Of a stretch of 64,000 nucleotides of DNA, positions 31,728 to 64,000 are shown in pieces. The position numbers and the translations under genes are program-made. Source of the stretch: Desulfuromonadales bacterium (GTDB lineage Bacteria; Desulfobacterota; Desulfuromonadia; Geobacterales; Pseudopelobacteraceae); NCBI GenBank assembly GCA_013349325.1, contig DUZX01000011.1, positions 1 through 64,000 of the forward strand, in the 5' to 3' direction. Under the pieces are notes generated by a model that did not search any database, was not told where the DNA came from, and saw only the letters and a program-made list of their open reading frames with translations. Numbering within the stretch: the first letter of the stretch is position 1; each line of letters opens with the position of its first letter.

Positions 31728-31804
31728 GGCAGACGAGAATACTAAACCATTCGCGAGGGTGGGACGGAAAGCCCATTGGGTCTCACGGAGACAGCCGGGT
31801 CGCC
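31728..31804 (+). promoter_or_regulatory. GEMM-I riboswitch, cGAMP-type (GEMM-Ib) variant
   Basis: Seen: the conserved ACTAAACC ... GGTGGGACGGAAAGCC ... GGGTCTC..GAGACAGCCGGGTCGCCG core of the GEMM-I class, with P1 formed by GGC(A)GAC (31728-31734) and GTCGCC (31799-31804). Known: in Vc2 the ligand-contacting position 20 is G for c-di-GMP, and A in Geobacter switches that sense 3',3'-cGAMP. Aligned here, that position is A31741. Downstream, GTGAT...ATCAC around a GCCTGC/GCAGGC hairpin (31815-31849) may be the expression platform; it has no T-run. Controls the RCC1-repeat gene at 31872. Confidence 0.88.
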
Positions 31805-31871
31805 GAAATGTCGCGTGATAACCGGCCTGCTAAAGCAGGCGATAATCACAGCTACGAAAGGAGCATTAACC

Positions 31872-38861: not shown

Positions 38862-40538
38862 ATGCAGCTCACAGAAAAAAATCACACCAACCATCAATCC
38901 CACAACAATTTTATCTGGCTGTGTGTTATCGTAGGTACTGTTTTCATCGGTGCTCTGTTGCTGGTGCGCTGTGTTACGGATTACCGGCGAGAGGTGCGCC
39001 TGCTCGAAGAGCGTCTTATGGCGCAGGCACGGGTTGTTGATGAGAACCTTACGGCTAATTTGTATTCTATTAACCTCATGCTGGAAAACATTGCTCAGGA
39101 ACTTGGTACCAGCGATGGCACTAACCGTTCCGCAAGCCTCGCACAGTACCTTGAAATTCAAAGTAATTCACTCCCCGGAATTCGCACACTTCTCGTTACT
39201 GATCAAAATGGCCGTTGCCTGAATTCAAGTCGTAAAGAAATTGTCGGGCAGGACTTTAGTAAACGGAGCTATTTTACTGTTCCCCGTGATTCCGCTGATA
39301 AGAGCCTTACGTTCATGTCTTCACCGTTCAGGTCGATTCTGGGATTAGTTGTTATCAGTATTTCAAAACCAGTTATCGGAAAACAGGGGCAATTCAAAGG
39401 TGTTATTGTGGCGTCACTCTCCCCGGAATATTTTCAGACGCTGCTCAAGTCGACCATCTACGCCCCTGACAACCGGATTGCTCTCATACACTCTGACGGT
39501 ACGATTTTTACCGCCATACCAGACGGCACCGGTTCCGTTGTCGGTCAGAATATGCTGAAACCGGGTACTCAGTACTTTCGGCACATCCTGAGCGGCAGGC
39601 CAACGTCTCTTCAGAGCGGTCGCAGTGCTACGACCGGGGATAGCCGTGTCTTTGCCTATATCAACAACACCCCGAAAGATCTGCGCTTCAACAAAAGACT
39701 GGTGGTCGCTGCCAGCCGTAATCTGGATGCCGCTCTGCTGCGCTGGAAGATCGAGGCCGCCATACAGCTGGTGCTGTATCTTATTATTGCGACTGTGGTC
39801 CTGATTATCACACGAAAGATGTGTCAGGCGCTGGAAGCAACAACCGCATCCAATGCAACCATGAGCAGGTTGATGAAAATTGTGGCGCACGAGTTTCGCA
39901 CGCCACTCAGTCTGCTGATCGGCAGTACTGATATCCTGGACCGCTATTGGGATCGCCTGACCCCTGATAAGCGGACTGAACAGAATGAGTTTATCCGCAG
40001 TGCCGCACGACAAATATCAACGCTGGTACATTCGGTGATCTCTTTTAATGAGCTTGGAACGGTCAGGGTCGTTGAGCTTGCACTGATTACGGATATCAAG
40101 GCGCTTTGTCGCTCGTATGCGGCAGAAATTGAAGCCGTGTGGGGTACCGGCCAGCAGTTTGCAGTTTCGGGAGAGGCTGGCGGCGATCCGTTTCTTTTGG
40201 ATGAAACCTTATTTCGGCGGATTCTGGAAAATATTCTGACGAATGCGTTCCGTTATACCCCCTCTAACGGTTCTGTGTCACTGAATGTCAGCCGGGAGCA
40301 GAACAGACTGTATCTGGTGGTTGCCGACACCGGAATCGGTATTCCCGAAAAGGACCAGCAGCAGATTTTTAATCCCTTCTATCGCTGCGAGAACGTCGAA
40401 GGGCGGCGCGGCCTTGGTCTTGGCCTTTCAATCGTCAGCGATGCAGTGGAACAGTTGGGGGGAAGCATCTCTATGTCGAGCAGAATCGGTGAGGGGACAA
40501 CGGTGAGTGTGACAATACCGGTCTCTTACCCGCAATAA
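38862..40538 (+). CDS. Membrane sensor histidine kinase with extracytoplasmic sensor (dCache-like)
   Basis: 558 residues. Helix one (about 19-38), an extracytoplasmic PDC/Cache-type sensor (about 40-290; RTLLVTDQNGRCLNSSRKEIVGQDFSKRSYF style), helix two (about 297-317), HisKA with VAHEFRTPLS (phospho-acceptor His) and an HATPase domain with the N box (ENILTNAFRYTP), DTGIGIP and GLGLGLSIV. It is followed 30 bases later by a response regulator, its likely partner. The pair sits directly before the magnetosome genes, so a regulatory link is plausible but unproven. Confidence 0.9.
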   Translation: MQLTEKNHTNHQSHNNFIWLCVIVGTVFIGALLLVRCVTDYRREVRLLEERLMAQARVVDENLTANLYSINLMLENIAQELGTSDGTNRSASLAQYLEIQSNSLPGIRTLLVTDQNGRCLNSSRKEIVGQDFSKRSYFTVPRDSADKSLTFMSSPFRSILGLVVISISKPVIGKQGQFKGVIVASLSPEYFQTLLKSTIYAPDNRIALIHSDGTIFTAIPDGTGSVVGQNMLKPGTQYFRHILSGRPTSLQSGRSATTGDSRVFAYINNTPKDLRFNKRLVVAASRNLDAALLRWKIEAAIQLVLYLIIATVVLIITRKMCQALEATTASNATMSRLMKIVAHEFRTPLSLLIGSTDILDRYWDRLTPDKRTEQNEFIRSAARQISTLVHSVISFNELGTVRVVELALITDIKALCRSYAAEIEAVWGTGQQFAVSGEAGGDPFLLDETLFRRILENILTNAFRYTPSNGSVSLNVSREQNRLYLVVADTGIGIPEKDQQQIFNPFYRCENVEGRRGLGLGLSIVSDAVEQLGGSISMSSRIGEGTTVSVTIPVSYPQ

Positions 40539-40568
40539 ATTGAGCGTAAGGAGGAGAGGAGCGACTGC

Positions 40569-41219
40569 ATGTATACCATACTGATAATTGAAGATGACGT
40601 TGCCTGCAAAACCATGATGGAAACCATTCTGCAGATGGAAGGTTTTTGCGTCACTAGCGCCACTGATGGTCAGGCCGGACTGGCGATGCTGGCTGAGTAT
40701 CGCCCGGATTTGATTCTGTGTGACATCATGATGCCGACCATGGATGGTCACTCTGTGTTAGCGAGACTGAGAGCTGATACGTCCTGTGCAGACATTCCCT
40801 TTATTTTTGTGACTGCCATGGGGGACCGCAACGACGTACGTCGGGGGATGTCGGCGGGTGCTGACGATTATCTGTCCAAGCCATTTTCAGCTGAAGAGCT
40901 CTTGGCCGCTGTTACGGGGCGGTTGAGCCGACGGGAGTCGTTTCGCAACCAGAGCAGTAAACCGGCACTGTTGGAGGAATTTGCTTTTCTCAGCCACCAG
41001 ACAACCGTGCGGGAGCGCGAGGTCCTCAATCTTGTCGGGCGTGGAGCTACATCCAAAGAAATAGCTGAGCAGCTCGGGATTACCATCAGAACGGTTCATG
41101 CGCACCGAACAAATCTGATGAATAAGCTCGGCGCAGCCAACGCTGCGCTTCTGGCGCGCTGGGCCGTCATAGCGGAGCAGATGCGGGACCGCGACAGTGG
41201 CGATGCTCGCAACCCATAA
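40569..41219 (+). CDS. Response regulator with LuxR-type HTH
   Basis: 216 residues. The receiver domain (about 1-120) has acidic pair EDD, phospho-acceptor Asp in LILCDIMMP and Lys in SKPFS; the C-terminus has the LuxR/FixJ motif TVREREVLNLVGRGATSKEIAEQLGITIRTVHAHRTNLMNKL. GGAGG precedes the ATG. Likely the partner of the kinase just upstream and a transcription activator. Confidence 0.92.
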   Translation: MYTILIIEDDVACKTMMETILQMEGFCVTSATDGQAGLAMLAEYRPDLILCDIMMPTMDGHSVLARLRADTSCADIPFIFVTAMGDRNDVRRGMSAGADDYLSKPFSAEELLAAVTGRLSRRESFRNQSSKPALLEEFAFLSHQTTVREREVLNLVGRGATSKEIAEQLGITIRTVHAHRTNLMNKLGAANAALLARWAVIAEQMRDRDSGDARNP

Positions 41220-44795: not shown

Positions 44796-44963
44796 ATGAG
44801 CAAAATTTTAATCGGCGTTTTCTCGGGTATTTTTATCGGCGCAGTTATCTACGAACTCGTTAACAGAACAAATCCTGATCTGATCAAAAAAGTTGAAGAT
44901 ATGGCCAGCAATAAGATTGATGCACTGTGCGGAGTTGTAAGCGAGAGTCATGAAGCAGCTTAG
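44796..44963 (+). CDS. Small single-helix membrane protein (55 aa)
   Basis: 55 residues from ATG 44796 (AAAAGGAG upstream). One N-terminal helix (about 3-21, LIGVFSGIFIGAVIYEL) and a charged tail. It follows the paralogue gene by five bases and overlaps the start of mamP by 14 bases, so it is part of the operon. Not recognised; comparable in size to small Mam/Mad membrane proteins. Confidence 0.65.
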   Translation: MSKILIGVFSGIFIGAVIYELVNRTNPDLIKKVEDMASNKIDALCGVVSESHEAA

Positions 44964-45933
44964 ATTTGTCACCAACCCCATATTCCTGTTGATGATGATT
45001 TCCTCCTTCGTCTACGTCTATTTCTTTTATCTGGCCGATGGACCGGCCCGCAAAAAGGAAGCGGCGGAAGCCGAGATGGAAATGGCCCGTCCGGTGCCTC
45101 CTGCCACTAATCCCAACGCTGCAGCCCCTGTTGCCGGGATTATCATGAAAGAGGAAAACCCGTTTAATATGGGTAACGAGCCGGGACAGATGAACGTTCT
45201 GAACGGTAATCAGTTCTTTAATCAGCAGAATCGCCAGGACCCGATGGCGCTCCAGGAAGAGAACCCCTTTGCACCGCGTGCCAGAAAAGTGCGTCCTAGT
45301 CAGCAGGTAGATCCGAACGCTCAGCCGGTCCAGTTTCAGTACCCCAACGGCTACTTTCCGCAAGGTGTGGTTCCCGTGGCTGGCGGAGCTTTGGGTAAAA
45401 CCTGGATTGAAGCCCACTGGATCGGATTGGAAGCCGGGCCGCTGGTGCCTGCCGTTGCAAAGGCCAACAATATCCCGCCCGATGTGAACGGGGTGTTTGT
45501 TGATGAGGTTACGCTGATCGCTGCCGACTCAGGACTTCTGGCAGGCGATGTGATTACGGAAGTAAATGGCGTGCACGTTAATGATCTGCGCTCATTCAAG
45601 TATGCAACCAATCTGGTGGCACAGGCAACCCAGACTCATGTGACGGTCTATCGGCGTGGCGGTTACAAAAATATCACCGTCAGCAGCCCGGATGCATTCG
45701 GTGTCGCCCAGGTTGAGGGGGCGCCGATGATTCTTGCTACTGACAGGGCGCCGCACGGCTATTACGGCCCCTGTGACAGCTGCCATACGATCGCACCCGG
45801 CCGCGCAAATCTTAACCAGATGGCCAAAGATCTGGGCGACATACTCGCCAAATCAGCGCCAAATATCAGAAAAGGGACACCTGCTCCGCACGGAAACAGA
45901 GGTGCATGCTCTAAATGTCACGTTCTACTTTGA
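44950..45933 (+). CDS. mamP: MamP-like PDZ protein with two magnetochrome motifs
   Basis: 327 residues. One N-terminal membrane helix (about 9-28), a Pro/Gln/Asn-rich linker, a PDZ domain (about 165-245, GVFVDEVTLIAADSGLLAGDVITEVNG), then two CXXCH (C275-H279 and C320-H324) in the PHGYYGPCDSCH/PHGNRGACSKCH form that defines magnetochrome domains. This is the MamP layout; MamP oxidises Fe(II) and balances Fe(II)/Fe(III) for magnetite. It lacks a protease domain, so it is not MamE. Overlaps mamM by 19 bases. Confidence 0.85.
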   Translation: MKQLRFVTNPIFLLMMISSFVYVYFFYLADGPARKKEAAEAEMEMARPVPPATNPNAAAPVAGIIMKEENPFNMGNEPGQMNVLNGNQFFNQQNRQDPMALQEENPFAPRARKVRPSQQVDPNAQPVQFQYPNGYFPQGVVPVAGGALGKTWIEAHWIGLEAGPLVPAVAKANNIPPDVNGVFVDEVTLIAADSGLLAGDVITEVNGVHVNDLRSFKYATNLVAQATQTHVTVYRRGGYKNITVSSPDAFGVAQVEGAPMILATDRAPHGYYGPCDSCHTIAPGRANLNQMAKDLGDILAKSAPNIRKGTPAPHGNRGACSKCHVLL

Positions 45934-50333: not shown

Positions 50334-52373
50334 ATGGGATCAGAGAAAATTGCTGACAGCACCGAGAGTACTCTTCAGCAGCCTGAACATACGTGCTCCC
50401 GGAACTATAAACCGTGGATCTGGACACTGGTGGTCATGGCGATCCTCACCATTGTGTGGGCACTGTACGAAGGATCACAGCAGGAAGGGTATGTAAATAA
50501 CTTCCTTACCAAAGGTCAAACTGCCAAGAATCTGGGTGCGCCAGCCCTTACACAGGTTGCCGGTGTCCAACAGGCTCCCGGTGCGGTTGGAGATGTCCAG
50601 ACCTCCTATCATGGCATTATCGACATGGTCAGGCCTGCGGTTATCAGTATCGATGCGGCCATGCGTAATCAGCCGACGGCAGCTAACCAGGGCGCCATTG
50701 AGCCGCTCCCCACAGACGTGGCTTTCACCAAGATCGGATCCGGCGTCATTATTGATCAGCGCGGTTACGTGCTCAGCAGTTACCACGTCATTGCCGGGGC
50801 TGAGTCTTTAAAAGCAACGGTCTACGGTCCGGGAGGAGCTAAAGAGTATCCTCTCAAATTGGTAAAAGCTGATTTACGCACCGATATGGCCTTGCTGCGC
50901 ATTCAGGGTGGCGGATCCTTTCCGTATGCTGCTCTGGGCAACTCCGACGCTTCCAGAACAGGTGATATGGTCCTTACGATAGGCAGTCCATTCGGATTTG
51001 AACAGTCGGTTACCTCCGGCATGATCAGCAGCCGCAACCGGACGCTGCAAGTCGGTGATACCGTCTATGAAAATCTGATTCAGACCGATTCACCCATCAA
51101 TCGTGGCAGCAGCGGTGGCCCGATGCTGAACGTGCAGGGTGAAGTTATTGGTATTAACACCGCCATATTTGCTCCGACCGGTGTCTTTAACGGCATCGGC
51201 TTCGCCATTCCGATCAACCGTGCGGCCGACCTGGTGGGCGGAGTCATTGACTTCAACAACATGGCTCCCGGTGCAGGCGCCGGCCAGTTGGTAGCCTGGA
51301 CAAACCAGGGTCGTCAGGTTGGTAACGCCTACCGTCTTCCTGGCGGACAGATGATTACACCACCGCACCCGCTGCGCGGTAAATGCCTGGACTGCCATCC
51401 TCAGTTGTTTGAACAGCAGGCGCAGGCCGCTCCGGTCAACGCGGATCTGTTCCCGCAGCAGGGACAGGCTACACCGGTTAACGTCGATCCGTTCCTTCAG
51501 CAGGGTAGAGGCATGCAGGTTAACGTTGATCCGTTTCTGCAACAGCAGGGTCAGGGCATGCCGGTTAATGTTGATCCGTTTTTGCAACAGCAGGGAAGAG
51601 GCATGGCTGCCAACGCTGATCCGCTGCTACAGCAGCAGAACGGCCTGCACATCGGAGCCGGTGCAGGAAAAAGCAAAGGTCTCTTCGGTCGCTTCAATGG
51701 CGGACCGTTAACCGGTAGCGGTGGTCAGTTGACAGCCGCCGGGCAGCAGGGTTCGTACATTGAACCGCTCATGGGAGTCGGCCTGGTTGACGTCAATGAA
51801 ACAATCAGCCAGCAGGCCAAGATGGTGCATCCTGAAGGGGTACTGGTAACCGGAGTCCTGCCGGGTGGACCGGCCGATACCGCCGGCATCCAGCGTGGCG
51901 ATATCCTTGTCCGGATTGCCGGGCGTAAAATACTGAACATTGCCAGCCTCAACAAGCTGCTGTCTTCACAAAATATCGGCCGCAAATTTGAGCTTATCTA
52001 TCTGCGTAACGGATCCCGTCAGGCAGCCAGAATTAAAACCGGCATCAAGAATCAGGCAGCAGTGCAGCAACCTCGTCAAGCTGGTCAGATGCAAGAGCAG
52101 GGGGCCTATCAGTGGCCGTTGGGCGCCAGTGTATCACCGCTTGGTCCGAGAAATATGATGTTCACCAAAACCGGTGTCTGCGTTCAGAACAGCGGCGGAA
52201 TCCTGGCCGCCAACGGTCTCAGAAACGGAGATATCATCAAGGCGATCAACGGAAAACAGGTTGAAGATCTGGAAACATTTATCAAACAGTCGAAAAAGGT
52301 TAATAGCAAGAAGGGGTTTATGCTGGACGTTATCCGTTCCGGTAATTCCATCTTCCTGACAGTAAAAGGGTAA
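50334..52373 (+). CDS. mamE: MamE-like HtrA protease with magnetochrome and two PDZ domains
   Basis: 679 residues. One membrane helix (about 29-45), a trypsin-like domain with an intact triad His151 (SSYHVIAG), Asp184 (RTDMALL) and Ser260 (RGSSGGP), one CXXCH at 351-355 (PHPLRGKCLDCH, magnetochrome), five tandem repeats of about 15 residues (361-436), then two PDZ domains (about 480-585 and 600-679). MamE processes magnetosome proteins and controls crystal growth. AMB-1 MamE has two magnetochromes; here I see one. Triad complete, so active protease likely. Confidence 0.88.
   Translation: MGSEKIADSTESTLQQPEHTCSRNYKPWIWTLVVMAILTIVWALYEGSQQEGYVNNFLTKGQTAKNLGAPALTQVAGVQQAPGAVGDVQTSYHGIIDMVRPAVISIDAAMRNQPTAANQGAIEPLPTDVAFTKIGSGVIIDQRGYVLSSYHVIAGAESLKATVYGPGGAKEYPLKLVKADLRTDMALLRIQGGGSFPYAALGNSDASRTGDMVLTIGSPFGFEQSVTSGMISSRNRTLQVGDTVYENLIQTDSPINRGSSGGPMLNVQGEVIGINTAIFAPTGVFNGIGFAIPINRAADLVGGVIDFNNMAPGAGAGQLVAWTNQGRQVGNAYRLPGGQMITPPHPLRGKCLDCHPQLFEQQAQAAPVNADLFPQQGQATPVNVDPFLQQGRGMQVNVDPFLQQQGQGMPVNVDPFLQQQGRGMAANADPLLQQQNGLHIGAGAGKSKGLFGRFNGGPLTGSGGQLTAAGQQGSYIEPLMGVGLVDVNETISQQAKMVHPEGVLVTGVLPGGPADTAGIQRGDILVRIAGRKILNIASLNKLLSSQNIGRKFELIYLRNGSRQAARIKTGIKNQAAVQQPRQAGQMQEQGAYQWPLGASVSPLGPRNMMFTKTGVCVQNSGGILAANGLRNGDIIKAINGKQVEDLETFIKQSKKVNSKKGFMLDVIRSGNSIFLTVKG
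51414..51641 (+). repeat. Tandem coding repeat in mamE (PVNVDPFLQQQ units)
   Basis: Five consecutive units of ~45 bases code for variants of GQGMPVNVDPFLQQQ directly after the CXXCH. Units 2-4 are most alike. Likely unstable in copy number and a flexible spacer between the magnetochrome and the PDZ pair. Confidence 0.85.
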
Positions 52374-54187: not shown

Positions 54188-55069
54188 ATGCTCTACAGGT
54201 TACTTACATCAGATGTACCTGATATTCTCGCCTACGCATCGGCTTTTGTTACGGCTCTCTGGTTGTTCGTAGATCATCAATATGCTGCGGTTCTGCCTCG
54301 CTTTATCGCAGTATGGTCACCGGATAATGGAATTATATTTTCTGTTTTTACCGGCACCATCCTGATCTGCAAATATATCTGTCTGGAAGGGAATGAGCAG
54401 GCGGTACATCAGCTGAGTGAGGAAACAAGTCGTCAGGAAGGAATTATAAAAGCCCACGAACTGACCGCTGTGGCGCTTAACAAAAAAGCGGCGGTTCGGG
54501 ATTCTGAAATCAGCACCTTGCAAAGTAGAATTGCTGAAATGGACGCACACTCACCCACAGCAGAGCTGAGCGAACTTCGCAAAAAAATACGTGCCACCGA
54601 AGATGATACCAAAGCGGCACTGACGGTACTGGTTAAAAACCTCCAGTCACGGCTTCATTTTCTAAAAGATGTTCATGACCCGCAGCTGCTCTTCGCCTGT
54701 GATGTGCTGCGTCAGGAGCTGGAACTGGTCGAAAATGAACTCAAGCGCGGAGATCGCTCGTATTACGAGCTCTGTCTTAAAATCGTCGATATTGACGATA
54801 ACCTTGCAGAGCTGAAAGATATCGATTTAGCGGCCAGTTTTGACCAGAGTCCCAAGCAGCACGGCGTTGCCGAAACCTGGCTGAATTTCATCAAACTTAA
54901 TGACAGTAACGATCCGGCAGCCATTGAACGGGCCTTCAAATTTTTCAAGTTTGCGTTTCATCCGGACCGCTTTACGTCGGAGTCGTTAAAAGTGGAAGCA
55001 AGCAGGTACTTCCAGCACAGTATCAACGCGCATAACACCATCAAGCGAAAGGATCAGGCAGCTCCATGA
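54188..55069 (+). CDS. Membrane coiled-coil protein with a J-domain-like HPD end
   Basis: 293 residues. Two hydrophobic segments (about 10-28 and 43-62), a long coiled coil (about 65-230, heptad Leu/Glu/Lys) and a C-terminal helical piece WLNFIKLNDSNDPAAIERAFKFFKFAFHPDRF. The HPD with surrounding helices resembles a J domain, which would stimulate an Hsp70. Overlaps the next gene by four bases. The Hsp70-like fold of MamK makes a contact with it an attractive guess, nothing more. Confidence 0.65.
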   Translation: MLYRLLTSDVPDILAYASAFVTALWLFVDHQYAAVLPRFIAVWSPDNGIIFSVFTGTILICKYICLEGNEQAVHQLSEETSRQEGIIKAHELTAVALNKKAAVRDSEISTLQSRIAEMDAHSPTAELSELRKKIRATEDDTKAALTVLVKNLQSRLHFLKDVHDPQLLFACDVLRQELELVENELKRGDRSYYELCLKIVDIDDNLAELKDIDLAASFDQSPKQHGVAETWLNFIKLNDSNDPAAIERAFKFFKFAFHPDRFTSESLKVEASRYFQHSINAHNTIKRKDQAAP

Positions 55070-55968
55070 ATAAATACCTCCTCACGCTGCTGATACTGCT
55101 GGTCGTCACGGGAAACGCTCTTGCGGGCCCGGTTGTCATTGACGGACATGCCGTTGTGACCGATCTGCCGGAAGCCTTGCTGCTGGTAATCTTCGGCTGC
55201 GCTGTCGGCCTGATCGGAACTTTAATCGGTGCCGGTGGCGGATTTATCCATGTTCCCATGCTGATGATTTTTTTCGGTTTTTCACCGCAGTTGGCCATTG
55301 GAACTTCAATAACGGCCGTGTTCATGAATGCGCTGTCAGGCACTTTTTCATACGTGACACATAAACGGATCGATTACGAAATCGGTCTCAAGTTTGCCAC
55401 CGCTGCGGTGCCGGGCGTCCTAGTCGGTGCCGTAATTGCCCAGCATTTCACGTTTACCAGCTTTTCGATCATCTTCAGCATCACGCTGGTACTTCTGTCG
55501 ATCCACCTTTTTTCGGAGAAAGATATTTCAATCGTACGGACCAAAGCGCTCGAACTGCCCAAGGAGCGACTGCTGATGGATGCCGAAGGAGAGATGCACG
55601 CCTATGCCCCCGACATGGCCATCGGACTGGCGGGTAGTTTTTTTACCGGTATCTTTTCGGGACTGTTCGGTATCGGTGGCGGCATCATTCATGTACCGCT
55701 GATGTACTCGGTGCTCGGCATGCCGGTCCATATTGCGACGGCAACATCGCATTTCATTCTTGCGATAACCAGCTTCTTTGCCGTGATTATCTTTACCGGA
55801 ATGCACGAGATTGATCTTGATTTTGCCATATTTATCGGCGTAGGCGCCATTCTGGGGGCCTATTTCGGAGCCCGTCTGTCACGCAGAACCCGTCCACGCT
55901 TTATCAAGCGTGCTATCGCGGTCTGTCTTTTAATGCTGGCCTTGAAATTGATTACCGGTGTTATGTAA
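55066..55968 (+). CDS. TauE/SafE family membrane protein (MamO C-terminal-like)
   Basis: 300 residues, eight helices. The two GxGGGFIHVPML / GIGGGIIHVPLM half-repeats (about 60 and 200) are the TauE/SafE signature. In Magnetospirillum, MamO is a degenerate protease fused to a TauE-type domain; here the TauE part stands alone, as reported for some deltaproteobacterial clusters. It may transport an anion or act as a structural partner. ATGA overlap with the previous gene. Confidence 0.82.
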   Translation: MNKYLLTLLILLVVTGNALAGPVVIDGHAVVTDLPEALLLVIFGCAVGLIGTLIGAGGGFIHVPMLMIFFGFSPQLAIGTSITAVFMNALSGTFSYVTHKRIDYEIGLKFATAAVPGVLVGAVIAQHFTFTSFSIIFSITLVLLSIHLFSEKDISIVRTKALELPKERLLMDAEGEMHAYAPDMAIGLAGSFFTGIFSGLFGIGGGIIHVPLMYSVLGMPVHIATATSHFILAITSFFAVIIFTGMHEIDLDFAIFIGVGAILGAYFGARLSRRTRPRFIKRAIAVCLLMLALKLITGVM

Positions 55969-55996: not shown

Positions 55997-58216
55997 ATGC
56001 AGCAGAAAATCATTTTGAACACCATATCAAAAACTATGAATTTGGGCGGATCCGCACTTGTTTCGGTATACGATGCCGGTGCCGGTATATTTAACAGCAC
56101 CATGTCGGCGCTGTCGCCGGGTGAAAAATCAAAGCTGCGCACCAGAATCAAGCTCTATGAAAAGAAAATACAGTCACTCTATGGTGAGATCGGCAGGGAA
56201 TCGTCCAAATATCCCGACCCTGCTGCTGCCCTGGAATCAAATTCTGTGAAAGCTCTGTTAGAAGCGATCAAAGAGCATACCAGTGGCATCGAGATTATGA
56301 AGCAGCGTATCATTGAACTCGAAGAAATCAAGGCAGCCAGGGTTAAGCCAAAGCCGGTAGCAAAACCGGAAGCGAAGAAGGGGCAGCACGAAAAAGTCGG
56401 CGTGGCGGCGTTTTTTATTAAGTCAATATCAAGCTCTATCGCCGGTTATCTGCCGGGTGAGCGCTCAACCCTTGAGCGTTCGATTGCTGAAAATGATAAA
56501 AAAATTCAGGCATTGTACGGTGAATTTGCCAGAGAATCCGCTAAGATGCCGGATCCGGCAGAAGCGCTCGCTTCAGAAACCGTCGCCGGAATTATATCTA
56601 AAATTAACGCGCTTAAAACAGTGAACGAAACACTGAAAGAACGTATTGTTGAATTGGCGGCTGGTAACAAAACTGTGCCGACTGCTAAAAAAGCTGCTGC
56701 TGTTGCACCGACTGAAGAGGAATGTTACGAAACTACCGCAGCGGCTGCGCCGCTCTGTGATGCGGTTGATGTCCTTGCAGCAGCCGGGGCAGAGCCGACA
56801 CCTGTAGCTGCAATTGCTGAACAGTCTGATCCTTCAACGACAGATTATACCAGGGCCAAGCCATGTACCATTCCGACCCCGAACCTTCAGCCTCCTACCA
56901 GGGGGGATATCGAAAACGTCACCCGTACGCTGCAGCCGGAACCGGTCGTTGAAGCTGTGAGTGCTGATCTGCCGCCGATAGTTGCCGAGGCTGTTGCAGT
57001 TGTTGAAGAACAGGTTGCCTCTGAAGTTGCTGATGTCATTGAAGAGCAGGTTGCAACTGATGTTGTTGCTGCCGTTGAGGAACAGGCAGCATCGTGGGGT
57101 GTCGTTGTTACTGACACAGAACCGGAAGCGGTGACTGTGGTCGTTGTCGAAGAACCGGTCGCTGCTGAAGTGAGCGCTGCAGTAGAAGAGCAGGCTGCTG
57201 CCTGGGGCGTCGTTGTTGCAGAGCCAGAAGCGGTTGCAGAAGCTGAACCGGAAGTACCTGCCGTTATTGAAGAGATTACAGCAGAGCCTGTCGTGCAGGC
57301 TGAAGAGGTGGTCGCCGCTGTCGAAGAGGTGGTGGCTGTTGTCGAAGAGGTGGCGGCTGTTGAAGAACCGCTCCCAGAGGCAGTAGCAGCCGAAGAAGAG
57401 TTGCTTGATGCTGACGTTATAGAACTAGCAGAAGAGTTGACCGAATCAGAACCGTCAGTCACTACACCGCTGCAGGAGGCCTCACCGCCTGAAGCACCTC
57501 CCGTTGTAGAAACAGTCACACCAGTTGTTGATGTTACTCTTACCTTAGAGGTTCCGCCGGCGGAGCTCGAAAAAAAAAAATTACCTTCTTTTGACCGGCC
57601 AGAACCGGAGCCGGTTGCCAGAGGATATTTTAGCGCAGCTCCGGACGAGTTCTCAAAAGTCCGGACAAGAACCACTGCAGCGCCATTTCGAGCACAACAC
57701 GAACCGACTCACGATTTCGCAGCACCGGGTTACGCGTCAACCTCAGGCTCTGCCGACGCCTCAGGGCCGGCCTTTCGTACCAGAGTTCACCAGAACGTAT
57801 TCTCCACAATCGCCGCAGTTCCGTCAGCAGCCGCTCTCCCTGCTGACGGTGCTCCGATTAAAGTTAAAGTTGCCGAAAAAGTAGCAGAGGCTCCTGTCTA
57901 CCGCCCTGCTGCAAGCGTGGACTCCTCAGAATCAGGGCCGGTATTTCGTACCAGAGCACATCAGCAGAATCCGTATCTGGAAGCGGCTGCCGCACAAGGC
58001 TTTACGCCTCCCGCTGCTCCGGTAGTCGAGACGGTTGTCAATACTTCTGAAGCAGTTGCCGAAAAAAAAGAGCCTGCAGCTAAAAAACACGCTGAAGCAT
58101 CGCCAGCACTTAATAAAACCAGTGCCGGCAAAGCTTCTGTGAAGCCGGATGCTGCAGCGGCCAAAGCAGCCGCCACCGCTGCAAGCGGCAAGAATAAACC
58201 CAGGAAGCGGAGCTGA
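55997..58216 (+). CDS. Large duplicated coiled-coil protein with acidic Val/Glu/Ala-rich region
   Basis: 739 residues. Two copies of an ~70-residue helical unit (about 38-110, SPGEKSKLRTRI...LYGEIGRESSKYPDPAAALES; about 153-225, LPGERSTLERSI...LYGEFARESAKMPDPAEAL) are followed by a low-complexity acidic stretch rich in V/E/A (about 310-520) and three copies of an FRTRxHQ motif near the C-terminus (about 560-660). The end is basic and Ala/Lys-rich. No family recognised; the acidic stretch could bind iron or mineral, as in other magnetosome acidic proteins, but this is untested. Ends by overlapping the Rieske gene by one base. Confidence 0.75.
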   Translation: MQQKIILNTISKTMNLGGSALVSVYDAGAGIFNSTMSALSPGEKSKLRTRIKLYEKKIQSLYGEIGRESSKYPDPAAALESNSVKALLEAIKEHTSGIEIMKQRIIELEEIKAARVKPKPVAKPEAKKGQHEKVGVAAFFIKSISSSIAGYLPGERSTLERSIAENDKKIQALYGEFARESAKMPDPAEALASETVAGIISKINALKTVNETLKERIVELAAGNKTVPTAKKAAAVAPTEEECYETTAAAAPLCDAVDVLAAAGAEPTPVAAIAEQSDPSTTDYTRAKPCTIPTPNLQPPTRGDIENVTRTLQPEPVVEAVSADLPPIVAEAVAVVEEQVASEVADVIEEQVATDVVAAVEEQAASWGVVVTDTEPEAVTVVVVEEPVAAEVSAAVEEQAAAWGVVVAEPEAVAEAEPEVPAVIEEITAEPVVQAEEVVAAVEEVVAVVEEVAAVEEPLPEAVAAEEELLDADVIELAEELTESEPSVTTPLQEASPPEAPPVVETVTPVVDVTLTLEVPPAELEKKKLPSFDRPEPEPVARGYFSAAPDEFSKVRTRTTAAPFRAQHEPTHDFAAPGYASTSGSADASGPAFRTRVHQNVFSTIAAVPSAAALPADGAPIKVKVAEKVAEAPVYRPAASVDSSESGPVFRTRAHQQNPYLEAAAAQGFTPPAAPVVETVVNTSEAVAEKKEPAAKKHAEASPALNKTSAGKASVKPDAAAAKAAATAASGKNKPRKRS

Positions 58217-58713
58217 TGCGAACGAAAGAGCCGATTGAGGACTACCAGGTTGAGCAAGGCCTGGACGGAACTACTGCTGAGCATGCCGGCTTCGGGAGAA
58301 GAAAGTTCATCAGCCTCTGTCTCGGTGGTGTGGGGGCGCTGGCCCTGAGCGGCTTTGCCGCCGTAGTCTATCCGCTGTTCCGCTACTATCTGGTGCCACA
58401 TTCCACCCAGTCAAGTGCCGCAACTTTCCAGATACCGCTCAATGACCTTGTGCCGGGTGAGGCCAAGTTCTTTGAGTTTAACGGCTCAGCTGCAGTTCTG
58501 CTCAAAAAACAGGATGGCAGCGTAGTTGCCCTTTCTGCCGTCTGCCCGCATCTGGGCTGTATCGTACAGTGGGAACAGAACAAACAGGATTTTCTCTGTC
58601 CCTGTCACGCCGGATATTTCACTGCTGACGGAGCCGTCATCTCCGGTCCGCCGCCTCGCCCGCTGGCCAAGCTGCCTTTCAGCGTCGCAAACAATATTGT
58701 AACGGTCGGCTAA
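58216..58713 (+). CDS. Rieske [2Fe-2S] protein
   Basis: 165 residues. A Tat-like signal/anchor (GRRKFISLCLGGVGALALSG, about 30-50) precedes a Rieske domain with CPHLGC and CPCHAG ligand motifs (Cys/His, Cys/His), the standard bc-complex form. Next gene is cytochrome b, so this is the Fe-S subunit of a quinol-cytochrome c oxidoreductase. It is fused in transcription to the acidic coiled-coil gene before it (TGATG overlap). Confidence 0.92.
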   Translation: MRTKEPIEDYQVEQGLDGTTAEHAGFGRRKFISLCLGGVGALALSGFAAVVYPLFRYYLVPHSTQSSAATFQIPLNDLVPGEAKFFEFNGSAAVLLKKQDGSVVALSAVCPHLGCIVQWEQNKQDFLCPCHAGYFTADGAVISGPPPRPLAKLPFSVANNIVTVG

Positions 58714-58758
58714 AAACCTATTTTAGTGCAGGACCGCACCACTACCAAAGGCCTACGC

Positions 58759-59862
58759 ATGATGCTTCACAAAAAGCTCTATAACTGGATCGATGACCGT
58801 CTCGGCATGCACGAGATTATCAACGAAAAGCGCAGCGGCTACCTGTTGCCGCCCAACGTTAACGCGTGGTATTCGCTCGGCAGTGTCCTTCTGGTTATCT
58901 TCGCCCTGCAGGTTACGACCGGTCTGCTGTTGATGCTCTATTACGTTCCTGATGTCGATAAGGCTTTCAGCAGCGTTGCTTTCATCATGAATGACATTCC
59001 GCTTGGCAGACTGGTACGTCTGTTTCACGCCGTCGGTTCGAGCCTTATGATCGTAGTGCTTGTCCTGCATATGCTTTCAATCCTGTTCATGGGCAGCTAC
59101 AAGAGCCCGCGTGAGATGCACTGGCTGACCGGCTTTATCCTGTTGCTTATGGCGATGGGCATCTCGCTGACCGGCTATCTGCTCCCCTGGAATCAACTTT
59201 CATTCTGGGCGACCACCGTCGCCACCGATGGCATTGGAACCATCCCCGTCGTTGGCCCGTATCTTGTCGAGCTGCTGCGCGGTGGCAAAATGGTCGGTTT
59301 CAAAACACTCGGGCGATTTTATACCCTGCACGTCGGCCTGCTGCCCGCCGGCATCACCATTCTGATCGGTGTCCACCTGTTCCTGATCCAGCGTACCGGC
59401 GTCTCGACACCACCGTTCGGACTCGAAGATACCAGCAACCCCTGGAAGGAAGAAAAATTTAAATACGAAGACCATCCGGGCGGTATCCCCTTCTTTCCTA
59501 ACTTCTTCCTGCAGGATCTGATTTCCATCTCGCTCTATCTGGCCTGTTTTCTGGCGCTGGTATTCTTTGCCCCCAATCTGTTCCTGCCGGCTACCGCCAA
59601 CCTGCCGGCCAATCCTTACGTAACGCCGGCTCACATCAAGCCGGAATGGTATTTTTTAGCCAACTATCAGACATTGAAGTTATTTCCCAGTGAAATCATC
59701 GGCCTGATCGTTCAAGTGCTGGCGATCGCCTTTGTGGCCCTGCTCCCCTTTATTGATCGCGGAGCGGAGAAACACCCGTTGAAACGGCCGTTCTTCACTA
59801 TCACCGCGCTGGGATGCATCCTGCTCTGGATCGGTATGACGGTCTGGGGATACTATTCATGA
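58759..59862 (+). CDS. Cytochrome b of a bc-type complex
   Basis: 367 residues from ATG 58759; GTG 58726 is an unlikely longer start. Eight or nine helices; His pairs HAVGSSLMIVVLVLH (13 between) and HVGLLPAGITILIGVH (14 between) bind two b haems, and 14 in the second is the cytochrome b6 spacing. PEWYFL is the quinol-oxidation motif. Full-length b (N and C halves fused). Follows the Rieske gene and overlaps the pentahaem cytochrome gene by four bases. Confidence 0.93.
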   Translation: MMLHKKLYNWIDDRLGMHEIINEKRSGYLLPPNVNAWYSLGSVLLVIFALQVTTGLLLMLYYVPDVDKAFSSVAFIMNDIPLGRLVRLFHAVGSSLMIVVLVLHMLSILFMGSYKSPREMHWLTGFILLLMAMGISLTGYLLPWNQLSFWATTVATDGIGTIPVVGPYLVELLRGGKMVGFKTLGRFYTLHVGLLPAGITILIGVHLFLIQRTGVSTPPFGLEDTSNPWKEEKFKYEDHPGGIPFFPNFFLQDLISISLYLACFLALVFFAPNLFLPATANLPANPYVTPAHIKPEWYFLANYQTLKLFPSEIIGLIVQVLAIAFVALLPFIDRGAEKHPLKRPFFTITALGCILLWIGMTVWGYYS

Positions 59863-60635
59863 GAGGCTGGACTATCAGCCTGCTGCTTGCAGTCATGATG
59901 TTGTCGCAGGTCCAGGCCGACGCTGCCGGGGTGGCGGTAGTCAACTGCATATCCTGCCATACGGTTCTCTCGGGGCGTCTGAGTACTCCGGTCAAACTCT
60001 GGAACAGCAGCATTCACGCGGAGCATGGCATCACCTGTAACGCCTGCCACGGCGGTGACCCTGCCGACAGCGCCAATGCCATGAGTCCGGCGCGCGGCTT
60101 TCGCGGCAAGCCAGCCGCACCTGCTGTCCCGGCCCTGTGTGGCGGCTGCCATATGGGTGTCCTGAAACATTATAATGAGAGCGCGCATGGCAGAGCGCTG
60201 ACAGTTGGCGGTCCTACCTGTATCACCTGCCACGGTAGTCACGGTGTGGTCAGTGCTTCAATTGAATTGATTAACCGCAAAAACTGTTCGAAATGTCACT
60301 CCTATACAAAAGCCCGCAAGATTAAAAATGCCATGCTGAAGACAGAAGGCATGCTCAAGGCGATTGATAAAAAGATAGCCGTACTCAAGGTGCAGGGGGT
60401 TGATACGGATAAGCTTGAAAAGCGCCTGTTTGCACTCCGTAATCGTTTTCATGCCATGTACCACAGCCTGGATGTCAAGCTGATCGTGCAGGAGTCAGAC
60501 CATATTCAGGCGGAGCTGAAGAAAACAAGCGGAATCGGCGGGGGCGGTACCGGACCACTGGTTGGAATGCTGGCTGTTGCATGGGCGCTTCTGGCCGCAT
60601 TGCTATTTTATCTGATCAAGAAAAATCTGGATTGA
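59859..60635 (+). CDS. Pentahaem cytochrome c, likely c-subunit of the bc-type complex
   Basis: 258 residues from ATG 59859 (overlap with cytochrome b). Signal peptide (about 1-22), five CXXCH sites (CISCH, CNACH, CGGCH, CITCH, CSKCH), a charged helical stretch and a C-terminal helix (about 233-252) that anchors it. Takes the place of cytochrome c1, so electrons from quinol would leave through a five-haem protein. It ends the operon block; a new promoter starts at its 3' end. Confidence 0.88.
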   Translation: MRGWTISLLLAVMMLSQVQADAAGVAVVNCISCHTVLSGRLSTPVKLWNSSIHAEHGITCNACHGGDPADSANAMSPARGFRGKPAAPAVPALCGGCHMGVLKHYNESAHGRALTVGGPTCITCHGSHGVVSASIELINRKNCSKCHSYTKARKIKNAMLKTEGMLKAIDKKIAVLKVQGVDTDKLEKRLFALRNRFHAMYHSLDVKLIVQESDHIQAELKKTSGIGGGGTGPLVGMLAVAWALLAALLFYLIKKNLD

Positions 60636-60734: not shown

Positions 60735-60956
60735 ATGGCACCTGTTCAATGCCCATCTGTTGTAACTGTAGCAGGACATAGAGCCAGTCAGAGTCTTGGG
60801 TACAAGGCCGCCTGCTGTAAGACGGCCGCTGCGGGTAAAGGCCTTTGTCTCGGCATCGGCCTGGGTCTGGGACTCTGGGGACCGATTGCGCTGGTGGGCA
60901 TCGGAGTTGCCGGCGGGTATTATTATTGGAAGAAAGCAAACGAGATGTTTGATTAA
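60735..60956 (+). CDS. Gly-Leu-rich Mms6-like membrane protein
   Basis: 73 residues. After a Cys-bearing head, GKGLCLGIGLGLGLWGPIAL and GIGVAGGYYYWKK follow very closely the Mms6 core (GKGLGLGLGLGLGAWGP, then a hydrophobic stretch with GAGAVYAYMK). Mms6 is a magnetite-bound protein that controls crystal shape in Magnetospirillum. The acidic iron-binding tail of Mms6 is missing: this protein ends KKANEMFD. Read from its own strong promoter with AAGGAG before the ATG. Other GL-repeat magnetosome proteins (MamD, silk-like) are alternatives. Confidence 0.72.
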   Translation: MAPVQCPSVVTVAGHRASQSLGYKAACCKTAAAGKGLCLGIGLGLGLWGPIALVGIGVAGGYYYWKKANEMFD

Positions 60957-61848: not shown

Positions 61849-62511
61849 CTATATTTTAACACCATAAATATTCGCGGCGATATCCTGCTCCAGCGCGATC
61901 TGTGTATTTTCGATCTGAATGACATAGGCGGGAAATTTCTGGCGGATCTTGATCACTTTTCCGGGTGACACCCCAAAAGATACCAGCTTGCCCATCAGGA
62001 CCGGATCCTCTTTACGGATAAAAGAGATGCGTACCTGATCACCCACCTCCATCGTATTGAGCGGATTGACAAACGACTTGACGGAGCTTTCGGAGCGCTT
62101 GCAACAGTCGCCTTCCGGGATCGGAGATCCGTGAGGACATTCACGCGGATGCCCAAGCAGAGTACAGATCGCTTCGGTCAGTCCCGGAGCCAGGGTATGC
62201 TCATATTCACAGGCAGACTCTTCGATTTCATCAAAAGGCATTCCCAGTACATCAACCAGTAAACGCTCAGCTATTCTATGTCTGCGGATAACCGGCATGG
62301 CATGCGCCTTCCCCTCTGCTGTAAGCGCAATTTCAGTCCCCCGAATTGTTACCAGGGCGTTTTTCTCCAATTCCGAGAGGATCTCGTCATCAACGATATA
62401 ATCCGTGCTCTTTTCATGCTCATCCTTCACATTTTGGAGCGTGCAGTGTCCGCGCTCCTCAAACCTCCAGATTGTTTCCAGAACTTCATCGGTAACATGT
62501 ACAATTTTCAC
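61849..62511 (-). CDS. DtxR/MntR-family metal-dependent repressor with FeoA-like domain
   Basis: 220 residues, GTG start (AAGGAG twelve bases upstream of GTG). N-terminal winged helix (about 1-65), a metal-binding/dimer domain (about 70-140, with CEYEH...HPRECPHG) and a C-terminal SH3/FeoA-like part (about 150-220, MEVGDQVRISFIRKEDPVLMGKLVSFGVSPG). Senses Fe(II) or Mn(II) and represses iron uptake. It is read after feoB on the same transcript. Confidence 0.88.
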   Translation of the reverse strand: MKIVHVTDEVLETIWRFEERGHCTLQNVKDEHEKSTDYIVDDEILSELEKNALVTIRGTEIALTAEGKAHAMPVIRRHRIAERLLVDVLGMPFDEIEESACEYEHTLAPGLTEAICTLLGHPRECPHGSPIPEGDCCKRSESSVKSFVNPLNTMEVGDQVRISFIRKEDPVLMGKLVSFGVSPGKVIKIRQKFPAYVIQIENTQIALEQDIAANIYGVKI

Positions 62512-62521
62512 GGCCTGCTCC

Positions 62522-64000
62522 TTAGAAAGTGAGATGCGCCCAGCGGATAAAATAATTAACAGCTCCGCCGGTAATGATGGCAGTAGTGGTGACTGCAGTG
62601 ATGATTGCCATAGCCCGCTGCGAACCCTGCTCTTTGATGATTAGCATGAAGTTTGTCACGCAGGGGATAAAGAGGATGGTTACAATCATGGCTACGACCA
62701 GTTGAGCATGATTCATGGTGCCGGCATCGGCCATCTTTTTCAGGATGGCGACCCCGGCTTCACCCCGGATAAAACCCATAATCAGCGATTCGGCAAACTG
62801 GGGCGGCAAGCCCAGAAAGCCACTGATCAACGGTGCAAACAGGGTCTCGATAATAGTAAGCAGACCGACTCGCTGGGCAATGAACAGGCCAAATGCACTG
62901 ATCACAAAAAGCGGCACCGCCTCCTTGAGAAACAGCACTGAACGATACGACGTTTTTACGAGAACGTTTTTAATGCTCGGGATGCGAATAGGGGGAACTT
63001 CCATGATAAAGTTGGAAGCTTCGCACGGCATCATTTTGTTGAGGATTATTCCGGTAGCGATGGTGAGCGAAAAAACAATGCCGAAGACAAACAGAAAAGC
63101 GGTAAAGGAGATCTGGGCCATGATAGCCAGGATGACACTCAGTTTGGCAGAGCAGGGGATGCCGAGCGAGAGCAGAAAAATGGCGATGAAGCGCTCACGC
63201 TTGTTGTCCAGGACCCGGGTGGATATTGTTGCCATGGTAACGCAGGAAAAGCCGAGTACCATCGGTAGAACAGCTTTGCCGTTGAGACCGACTTTTCTGA
63301 AAAGGCGATCCAGCAGAATCGAGAGGCGGGGAATATAGCCCGAATCTTCAATGCAGCCGAAGGTAAAGAAGAAAACCGTCAGAATCGGGAGCAGCAGGCC
63401 AAAGACCGGCACTACCGCCATGGTGTAAAAACCATACTCGCCAATGATCATATCCCGTACAAAACCATACGGAATTCCTGCCACCACTATTTTCAACCAC
63501 GGCGCGACAATGCCGCCAAAAAAATCATCTGACAGCAGATCGACAACGATGCCGGCAGCAAACTTACCAACGATCAGATACAGGGCGAATATGAGTGCAA
63601 GCAGTGTCAGGGTGCCTGTCACCGGCGTCAGCGTCAGGTCTCCTATTCTGTTGAGCAGTGGTGTTGACGTAACGTGGGTTGCGTAGACCGATTCAGCGTA
63701 CAGGGCTTCGGCCCAGAGACTCTCCGAGCGGGAGACCAGCAGTCCGAGATGACGGTGGAACGATTGTTGAGCGTCTAACAGTGCCTGACAGGCGACCGGG
63801 TTGTTCTCCAGCCCGCTTTTCTGCAGGGCCCACGTTGATGTGGCGTGATCACCAGCGATGGCAAAAAGAGCCAAAGCACGTTTTTCCCATACTGTACGTG
63901 GTGTGTCAGCAGAGAGCTCTGCCAGGTGTGTGACGGTAGCGGCCAGATGAGCGGGTAAACGGGATGCGAAGGTTGGCGTAACCGCCGTATGCAGTGCAGA
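62522..64000 (-). CDS. feoB: Ferrous iron transport protein FeoB (partial, C-terminal part)
   Basis: The frame is open to the window edge, so the N-terminal G-protein part is missing. The visible ~490 residues hold the membrane core: Gate motifs with GFSCVTMATISTRVLDNKRERF and GIPCSAKL, and LGFIRGEAGVAILKKM-like segments. FeoB imports Fe(II). It precedes the DtxR gene by ten bases, so iron uptake and its repressor are one unit, facing the magnetosome genes. Confidence 0.93.
   Translation of the reverse strand, partial: SALHTAVTPTFASRLPAHLAATVTHLAELSADTPRTVWEKRALALFAIAGDHATSTWALQKSGLENNPVACQALLDAQQSFHRHLGLLVSRSESLWAEALYAESVYATHVTSTPLLNRIGDLTLTPVTGTLTLLALIFALYLIVGKFAAGIVVDLLSDDFFGGIVAPWLKIVVAGIPYGFVRDMIIGEYGFYTMAVVPVFGLLLPILTVFFFTFGCIEDSGYIPRLSILLDRLFRKVGLNGKAVLPMVLGFSCVTMATISTRVLDNKRERFIAIFLLSLGIPCSAKLSVILAIMAQISFTAFLFVFGIVFSLTIATGIILNKMMPCEASNFIMEVPPIRIPSIKNVLVKTSYRSVLFLKEAVPLFVISAFGLFIAQRVGLLTIIETLFAPLISGFLGLPPQFAESLIMGFIRGEAGVAILKKMADAGTMNHAQLVVAMIVTILFIPCVTNFMLIIKEQGSQRAMAIITAVTTTAIITGGAVNYFIRWAHLTF

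Follow-up and report, generated by a model that had tools for sequence, protein, structure and literature searches.

We analysed a stretch of DNA of 64,000 nucleotides (the window) from a Desulfuromonadales bacterium (GenBank contig DUZX01000011.1), which is contig C11 of a 3.58-Mb genome, and found in it a predicted respiratory complex encoded inside a magnetosome gene cluster (MGC). Three genes at 58216-60635 encode a Rieske protein, a cytochrome b and a pentahaem cytochrome c (c5), here called the triad (Table 1). The Rieske frame matched Pfam PF00355 at 54.9 bits (cut-off 20.3), and the cytochrome b frame matched PF00033 at 188.5 bits and PF00032 at 68.6 bits, with both halves of the protein within one frame of 378 residues. 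The multihaem c frame, listed at 59814-60635, has five CXXCH motifs. Together the products are predicted to form a bc complex that oxidises quinol and whose c subunit carries five haems. An earlier note, made from the sequence of the window, had named the same three genes, and the Pfam matches and haem motifs bear it out.

The genes lie close together. The TGA stop of the acidic coiled-coil gene upstream overlaps the Rieske ATG by one base at 58216, as the earlier note had said. The listed cytochrome b start follows the Rieske gene after 12 bases, the cytochrome b and c5 genes overlap by four bases, and 99 bp separate c5 from the Mms6-like gene downstream. A single transcript continuing into the Mms6-like gene, as the earlier note suggested, is putative. 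The likely start of c5 is the ATG at 59859 rather than 59814; it lies in an ATGA that also holds the stop of cytochrome b, and what follows it reads by eye as a signal peptide. The alignments of most relatives begin only at residue 7-16 of cytochrome b, so its start may be the ATG at 58759 or 58762 and not the GTG at 58726. A perfect TTGACA-N17-TATAAA is present in the window at the end of the c5 gene, before the Mms6-like gene. We rejected it as a conserved promoter: the best match in the same gap of seven other MGCs had two mismatches in one (L008) and three to four in the other six. A scan for promoter-like sequences was at chance level (10 found, 10.1 expected) and did not list this one, as its rule requires a final T.

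Judged by gene content, the surroundings of the triad are a true MGC. A run from 42.9 to 61 kb encodes MamK, MamP, MamM, MamB, MamA, MamE, MamQ, a TauE-type protein and an Mms6/MamD/MamG-like protein. MamK and MamM scored above the NCBIfam cut-offs; MamP, MamB, MamA, MamE and MamQ were below them but strong. The triad sits within this run, between the TauE and acidic coiled-coil genes and the Mms6-like gene, and it has the same place in eight MGCs, so the claim that it is embedded in a magnetosome run stands. In all eight bc-bearing MGCs the TauE gene preceded Rieske, either directly or separated from it by the acidic gene; five of the seven MGCs other than that of the window had no acidic gene there. 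The Mms6-like gene was the downstream neighbour in 8/8. Its 73-residue product in the window (start at 60735) matched the MamD, MamG and Mms6 models with E values of 2e-10 to 1e-7, under their cut-offs, in line with what the earlier note had proposed for this gene.

The triad itself is ordinary in Geobacterales and other Desulfuromonadia. We scanned one genome per species from 84,980 species for cytochrome b, a scan through which alone MGCs of other phyla were covered, and kept the best 80 loci from 433 relatives. Among these best 80 of 433, three (L006, L007 and L008) were magnetosome clusters with the same triad after a TauE gene. The other 77 (L009-L085) had no mam homologue in their flanks (up to 10 kb per side, less at contig ends); c5 was present in all 77, and Rieske adjoined cytochrome b in 76, the exception (L083) beginning at a contig end. 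Five CXXCH motifs were found in 78 of 79 ordinary c5 proteins. The earlier note was right that a five-haem c takes the place of cytochrome c1, and this trait is not special to the MGC. The genome of the window has a second, ordinary copy of the triad (G000:C5), whose cytochrome b is 62% identical to the MGC copy, and we rejected the idea that the bc genes in the MGC are the sole housekeeping copy of the genome. These genomes also contain a cytochrome b of another type, with the b6 half only (e.g., G000:C54), about 36% identical to the window copy, which we take to be ExtP/GSU2932.

The trees indicate that the MGC copy is a distinct paralogue and not a relocated housekeeping operon. In a tree of 90 cytochrome b sequences, eight main-cluster rows and three rows from satellite loci (the mamE-linked G043:C111, G046:C25 and a contig-end fragment of G037) formed one clade with support of 100/100 (bootstrap not fully settled) and a stem of 0.51. 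This clade was nested among ordinary Geobacterales copies, and the ordinary copy of the window genome was elsewhere in the tree. A tree of 92 pentahaem proteins placed eight main and five satellite rows in one clade (100/100, stem 0.67), and in a quick tree with all 10 satellite rows the MGC clade had a Shimodaira-Hasegawa-like approximate likelihood ratio (SH-aLRT) support of 100. The Rieske quick tree grouped eight main and three satellite rows, with SH-aLRT 93. Loci duplicating contigs already represented (L006, L007, L003, L086-L143 and L164-L166), short loci from the window genome itself (L001, L002, L004 and L005), cytochrome b matches below 50% identity and short pieces (among them the cytochrome b pieces of L172, L174 and L183 and the smaller one of L171) were excluded from the trees, and L167 was left out of the Rieske set. 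The partial c5 pieces L160, L173, L181 and L182, and L180, were used in the quick tree only. Among the ordinary rows, L163 is identical to L015, and L154 is the window genome's own copy.

The MGC copies have residues of their own and have kept the functional ones. Fixed differences in cytochrome b include W95R, N106S and S156N, and the c5 linker before the C-terminal helix is 30 residues long in 13/13 MGC and satellite proteins versus 35 in 79/79 ordinary ones, a deletion of five residues. MGC rows that span the haem-b ligands (H101/H115 and H202/H217 in the window) and the PEWY motif (306-309) retain them, with PEWF as the Qo motif in L144 and in the L162 satellite. Each of the 10 MGC and satellite Rieske rows that were compared has the motifs CPHLGC (110-115 in the window) and CPCH (128-131), and the five CXXCH of c5 are likewise retained wherever an MGC row spans them. 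The MGC triad is under purifying selection: ratios of nonsynonymous to synonymous substitution rates (dN/dS) were 0.03-0.17, rough values because dS is near saturation in some pairs. With open frames, intact ligands and low dN/dS, we rejected the main-cluster genes as pseudogenes; the main cytochrome b of G037 has a frame open over 367 residues from its ATG despite one TAA counted within the match. A serine (WYSLG) occupies the presumed position of the haem c_i cysteine of cytochrome b6f, which follows the start of helix A. We rejected loss of that cysteine as a magnetosome adaptation, as the serine is also present in the commonest ordinary variants.

The MGC-type copy was found in genomes with magnetosome genes. 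We used MamK above the NCBIfam cut-off as a marker for an MGC in 76 genomes of the family, and nine had it. MGC-type cytochrome b was present in seven of the nine (the window genome and six others, 77-81% identical to the window), always on a mam-bearing contig. The earlier note had suggested comparing synteny in genomes with and without mam genes. In this comparison MGC-type bc genes were present in 8 of the 11 MGC genomes examined (two without, one interrupted by a contig end), and none of the 67 MamK-less family members had a cytochrome b more than 69% identical to that of the window. We rejected the MamK genome G016 as evidence of absence because its contig breaks within the MGC and the TauE gene is missing too. 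Conservation of the MGC-type triad across MGCs and its absence from MamK-less relatives hold within this lineage, not across all MGCs. The earlier note had also raised the case of the same three genes lying adjacent in non-magnetotactic relatives, the cluster having merely landed beside a housekeeping operon. Adjacent triads without mam genes are indeed common; that the cluster landed beside such an operon does not follow, because the ordinary copy is at G000:C5 and the MGC copy is a distinct clade that follows the MGC across genomes. Dedication of this bc complex to the MGC is well supported.

The bc genes apparently moved with the MGC into another order. Locus L008 (genome G277) is MAG_22309_dsfv_022, assigned to the Desulfobulbales in the accessible part of PMC7449369. 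It has the triad in its MGC and nowhere else in the genome, and its cytochrome b is 75% identical to that of the window. No triad-type copy was present in 26 further genomes of its family, of which 25 gave no match and one a 35% partial match. We rejected misbinning: about 51 kb away from the bc genes, the contig carries a gene that was 75-93% identical in nine of the 10 relatives tested from the same family and had no match in 6/6 Geobacterales, so the contig is the host's own. The 21-kb MGC stretch has a G+C content of 49.0%, compared with 56.7% at the contig's distal end. It is the different order, a family without a triad-type copy, a contig belonging to the host and the lower G+C of the MGC that suggest transfer. 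Genes for a Rep_3 plasmid initiator and a CHC2-primase-like protein adjoin this Desulfobulbales MGC (L184 9712-14649), and a volactin/MamK-like actin is encoded at 2595-3791 of L184; these genes are possibly part of a mobile element carrying the MGC. The genome MAG_13126_9_058 is described in the same part of PMC7449369 as a Pelobacteraceae bacterium of genus UBA8499, a metagenome-assembled genome with a published magnetosome cluster. The class names of these two genomes appear swapped in the accessible part of PMC9376291 relative to that of PMC7449369.

Further MGC-type copies (satellites) were present outside the main triad in six of the seven bc-bearing family genomes. Twelve of 15 such loci were beside mam homologues (Table 1), as counted by hand with one locus per contig, a mam homologue being taken as a neighbour if it lay no more than about 2 kb away. 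For 14 of the 15 loci, a tree put one or more of the genes in the MGC clade; G046:C63 was assigned by identity only. The satellites suggest repeated co-mobilisation with mamE and its neighbours and not many working complexes, because several are decaying. Satellite islands with mamQ-c5, four of the six with mamE in front, occur apart from the main triad in five genomes of the genus (L158 8253-9789, L159 9559-10981, L157 7727-9199, L155 6125-7583, L161 826-2206 and L160 9278-10319).

Table 1. The triad, its magnetosome neighbours in the window (nucleotide positions) and satellite loci beside mam homologues (genome and contig).
Feature	Location	Strand	Basis
Rieske [2Fe-2S] protein, 165 residues, N-terminal membrane anchor, CPHLGC and CPCH	58216..58713	+	Pfam, motif comparison, hydropathy
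Fused cytochrome b (b6 plus subunit IV type), 378 residues from GTG, four haem-b His, PEWY	58726..59862	+	Pfam/NCBIfam, alignments, tree
Pentahaem cytochrome c (c5), 258 residues, signal peptide (by eye), C-terminal membrane helix, 5-residue linker deletion	59859..60635	+	CXXCH count, hydropathy, trees
Acidic coiled-coil protein, 739 residues, upstream neighbour of Rieske, one-base overlap	55997..58216	+	
TauE-type membrane protein, resembles C-terminal part of MamO	55066..55968	+	
MamE-like HtrA/PDZ protease, one CXXCH, proposed electron-transfer partner	50334..52373	+	
MamP, two CXXCH magnetochromes, proposed electron-transfer partner	44950..45933	+	
Mms6/MamD/MamG-like crystal protein, 73 residues	60735..60956	+	
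mamE-mamQ-c5	G041:C8, G043:C12, G044:C192, G045:C320 (short c5)		
mamQ-c5	G046:C5 (17 kb from main triad), G046:C23		
mamE-cytB, 35 bp apart	G043:C111		
mamE-cytB fragment (truncated cytB), then Rieske-mamP (44 bp)	G041:C89		
mamA-Rieske-cytB, cytB frameshifted	G046:C25		
mamE-Rieske, 18 bp apart, cytB remnant with large internal loss	G046:C96		
c5 1.7 kb from mamM-mamB	G037:C28		
c5 fragment 1.8 kb from mamE	G037:C465		

Other genes in and around the cluster were recorded as well. A 293-residue MGC protein (window 54188-55069) has a C-terminal HPD motif, J-domain-like by eye, had no match in Pfam or NCBIfam, and adjoins a WD40 protein in all 10 MGCs readable there. A DtxR-FeoA-like regulator and FeoB, likely for iron supply and control, flank the MGC in three genomes (window 61849-63874, reverse strand; L147 14242-16868; L151 7031-9644). 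A Cache-domain sensor kinase and a response regulator are directly upstream of the MGC (window 38862-41219). A cyclic di-GMP-I riboswitch (Rfam RF01051; window 31731-31807) overlaps the listed start of an open reading frame of 411 residues that had no NCBIfam match. Genome G044 has a second mam cluster (L156, with MamK, MamA, MamP, MamM, MamB and MamE), and bc genes were not found on that 11.7-kb contig.

Based on these results, we lean towards the view that the triad serves the magnetosome as a conduit of its own, linking the menaquinone pool to the MamE and MamP magnetochromes and so setting the Fe(II)/Fe(III) ratio. An ordinary Geobacterales Rieske/cytochrome b/pentahaem-c complex would have been captured by the MGC in an ancestor of one lineage, and the paralogue would since have been inherited, and at least once moved, with the MGC. 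The complex would sit in the inner membrane, from which magnetosome membranes arise, and for that reason probably in the magnetosome membrane as well. From what is established for Rieske/cytochrome b complexes, it is predicted to oxidise menaquinol and to pass one electron through the Rieske protein to the c subunit. Magnetite requires a fixed Fe(II)/Fe(III) ratio. Here electrons would be exchanged between menaquinol and the five-haem subunit by way of the Rieske head, and c5 would in turn exchange electrons with the MamE and MamP magnetochromes at the lumen or periplasm face, thereby setting the iron ratio for magnetite in an anaerobe. We infer the membrane location, the partners, the direction and the role in iron redox. 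The link to MamE and MamP is plausible because separate islands have copies of the triad genes immediately next to mamE, mamQ or mamP. A 2014 paper called the magnetochrome proteins the sole redox proteins tied to the magnetosome and their electron-transfer partners unknown (PMC3971196, accessible part). Being linked to quinone and travelling with magnetosome genes, the complex is a concrete candidate for that partner and for the step that would join respiration to the iron chemistry of magnetite formation; a respiratory complex would then have been duplicated and one copy given over to a bacterial organelle.

Several observations weigh against such a conduit. Two MGCs lack the bc genes, that of G004, a MamK genome of another genus in which genome-wide searches for cytochrome b and c5 found no match, and that of G386, from another class of the phylum, where a genome-wide search for c5 found none; magnetosomes in general do not need the bc complex. 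The MamE of the window has one CXXCH only, and the carriers that could be named are metagenome-assembled genomes. There was no mam neighbour in the stretch read at three satellites, G046:C52, G037:C284 (a c5 piece and a cytochrome b piece at opposite ends of the contig) and G046:C63 (also at a contig end). Other satellites are decaying, with a frameshifted (G046:C25), internally deleted (G046:C96) or truncated (G041:C89) cytochrome b or a short c5 (G045:C320), and six satellite c5 genes beside mamQ, four of them in mamE-mamQ, had no Rieske or cytochrome b gene in the stretch read.

As to the direction of electron flow through the conduit, we mildly prefer menaquinol to Fe(III). In the reverse case, Fe(II) would be oxidised at MamP and MamE and the electrons would pass through c5, Rieske and cytochrome b to the quinone pool, giving an anaerobe an electron sink for making the Fe(III) of magnetite. 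The same gene evidence fits this, and bc complexes that run in reverse are known in acidophilic iron oxidisers. However, with most Fe(II) species as donors the electrons would have to be driven uphill by proton-motive force, and we found no sequence mark of direction, the fixed MGC substitutions having no redox meaning known to us. We regard reverse flow as unlikely, though a serious contender.

The complex could be dedicated to the MGC and serve energy supply, with Q-cycle protons delivered to the lumen side to drive the H+-coupled iron carriers MamM and MamB of the cation diffusion facilitator (CDF) family. Proton translocation is expected from the intact Qo-site and haem residues, the cluster also encodes MamM and MamB, and one c5 copy is 1.7 kb from mamM-mamB (G037:C28). 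Yet the commonest neighbours of the satellites are mamE and mamQ, several satellites have c5 without Rieske or cytochrome b and would be incapable of pumping protons, and by general chemistry acidification of the lumen opposes magnetite precipitation. These points make energy supply rather doubtful.

The six c5 genes directly beside mamQ fit another arrangement, in which only the pentahaem protein belongs to the magnetosome, as an electron store or shuttle next to MamE, and Rieske and cytochrome b are an optional reductase in the main cluster. But all three genes are kept in 8/8 readable main clusters, and Rieske or cytochrome b copies are also found beside mamE without c5, which makes this arrangement quite unlikely. 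We consider it improbable that the magnetosome is wired to the respiratory chain for two-way electron flow between the menaquinone pool and magnetite, the crystal being both compass and rechargeable electron store; if true, the cell would have a magnetite battery for use when outside electron acceptors or donors run short. That a duplicate of the housekeeping bc operon was inserted in the MGC by chance and has no magnetosome role is very improbable: relatives that have no mam genes commonly carry the triad, some satellites are decaying and two MGCs lack it, but the MGC copy has kept its place in eight MGCs, has entered with the MGC a lineage that otherwise has no triad, forms its own clade with diagnostic substitutions and a deletion, is under purifying selection, and was repeatedly placed beside mamE, mamQ or mamP in other islands.

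Both bc complexes and MGCs are known; a bc paralogue dedicated to an MGC is new as far as open-licence full texts show. We found no description of a bc complex in a magnetosome cluster in the open-licence full texts of PubMed Central (PMC), in keeping with the statement in the earlier note that it knew no such module in described clusters. The accessible parts of PMC4287615, PMC9376291 and PMC13200544 contain no such complex, a term search of PMC9840458 gave no matches, and the word "cytochrome" is absent from the main text of PMC7449369. Comparison of the c5 sequence with solved structures gave no useful relative, and an AlphaFold model of c5, with a mean predicted local distance difference test score (pLDDT) of 55 and a predicted template modelling score (pTM) of 0.33, suggests only helices before the membrane helix.

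The nearest known system is the ordinary operon of Geobacterales and Desulfuromonadia (e.g., L010 of Oryzomonas japonica, L033 of Geomonas limicola and G000:C5), which has the same genes, order, and haem, Rieske and Qo motifs. The MGC copies differ from it in their separate long-stem clade, the three cytochrome b substitutions, the c5 deletion and their mam neighbours. By description, the triad resembles the Geobacter GSU2930-2937 bc cluster, in which a Rieske protein and a cytochrome b occur with multihaem c proteins (2-, 10-, 12- and 5-haem cytochromes) and which was suggested as the Geobacter site of quinol oxidation (PMC2825233, accessible part). With cytochromes b6f and bc1, many solved chains of which match, it shares the four-histidine cytochrome b, PEWY and the Rieske motifs; its cytochrome b is fused, in contrast to the split b6 and subunit IV of b6f, and its c subunit is pentahaem, in contrast to the monohaem c1 of bc1 or f of b6f. 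Among magnetosome proteins, MamE, MamP, MamT and MamX likewise carry c-type haem and are thought to handle iron redox (PMC3971196, accessible part). They are single-helix haem proteins, whereas the triad, known here from its genes, would be a quinone-linked membrane complex of three subunits.

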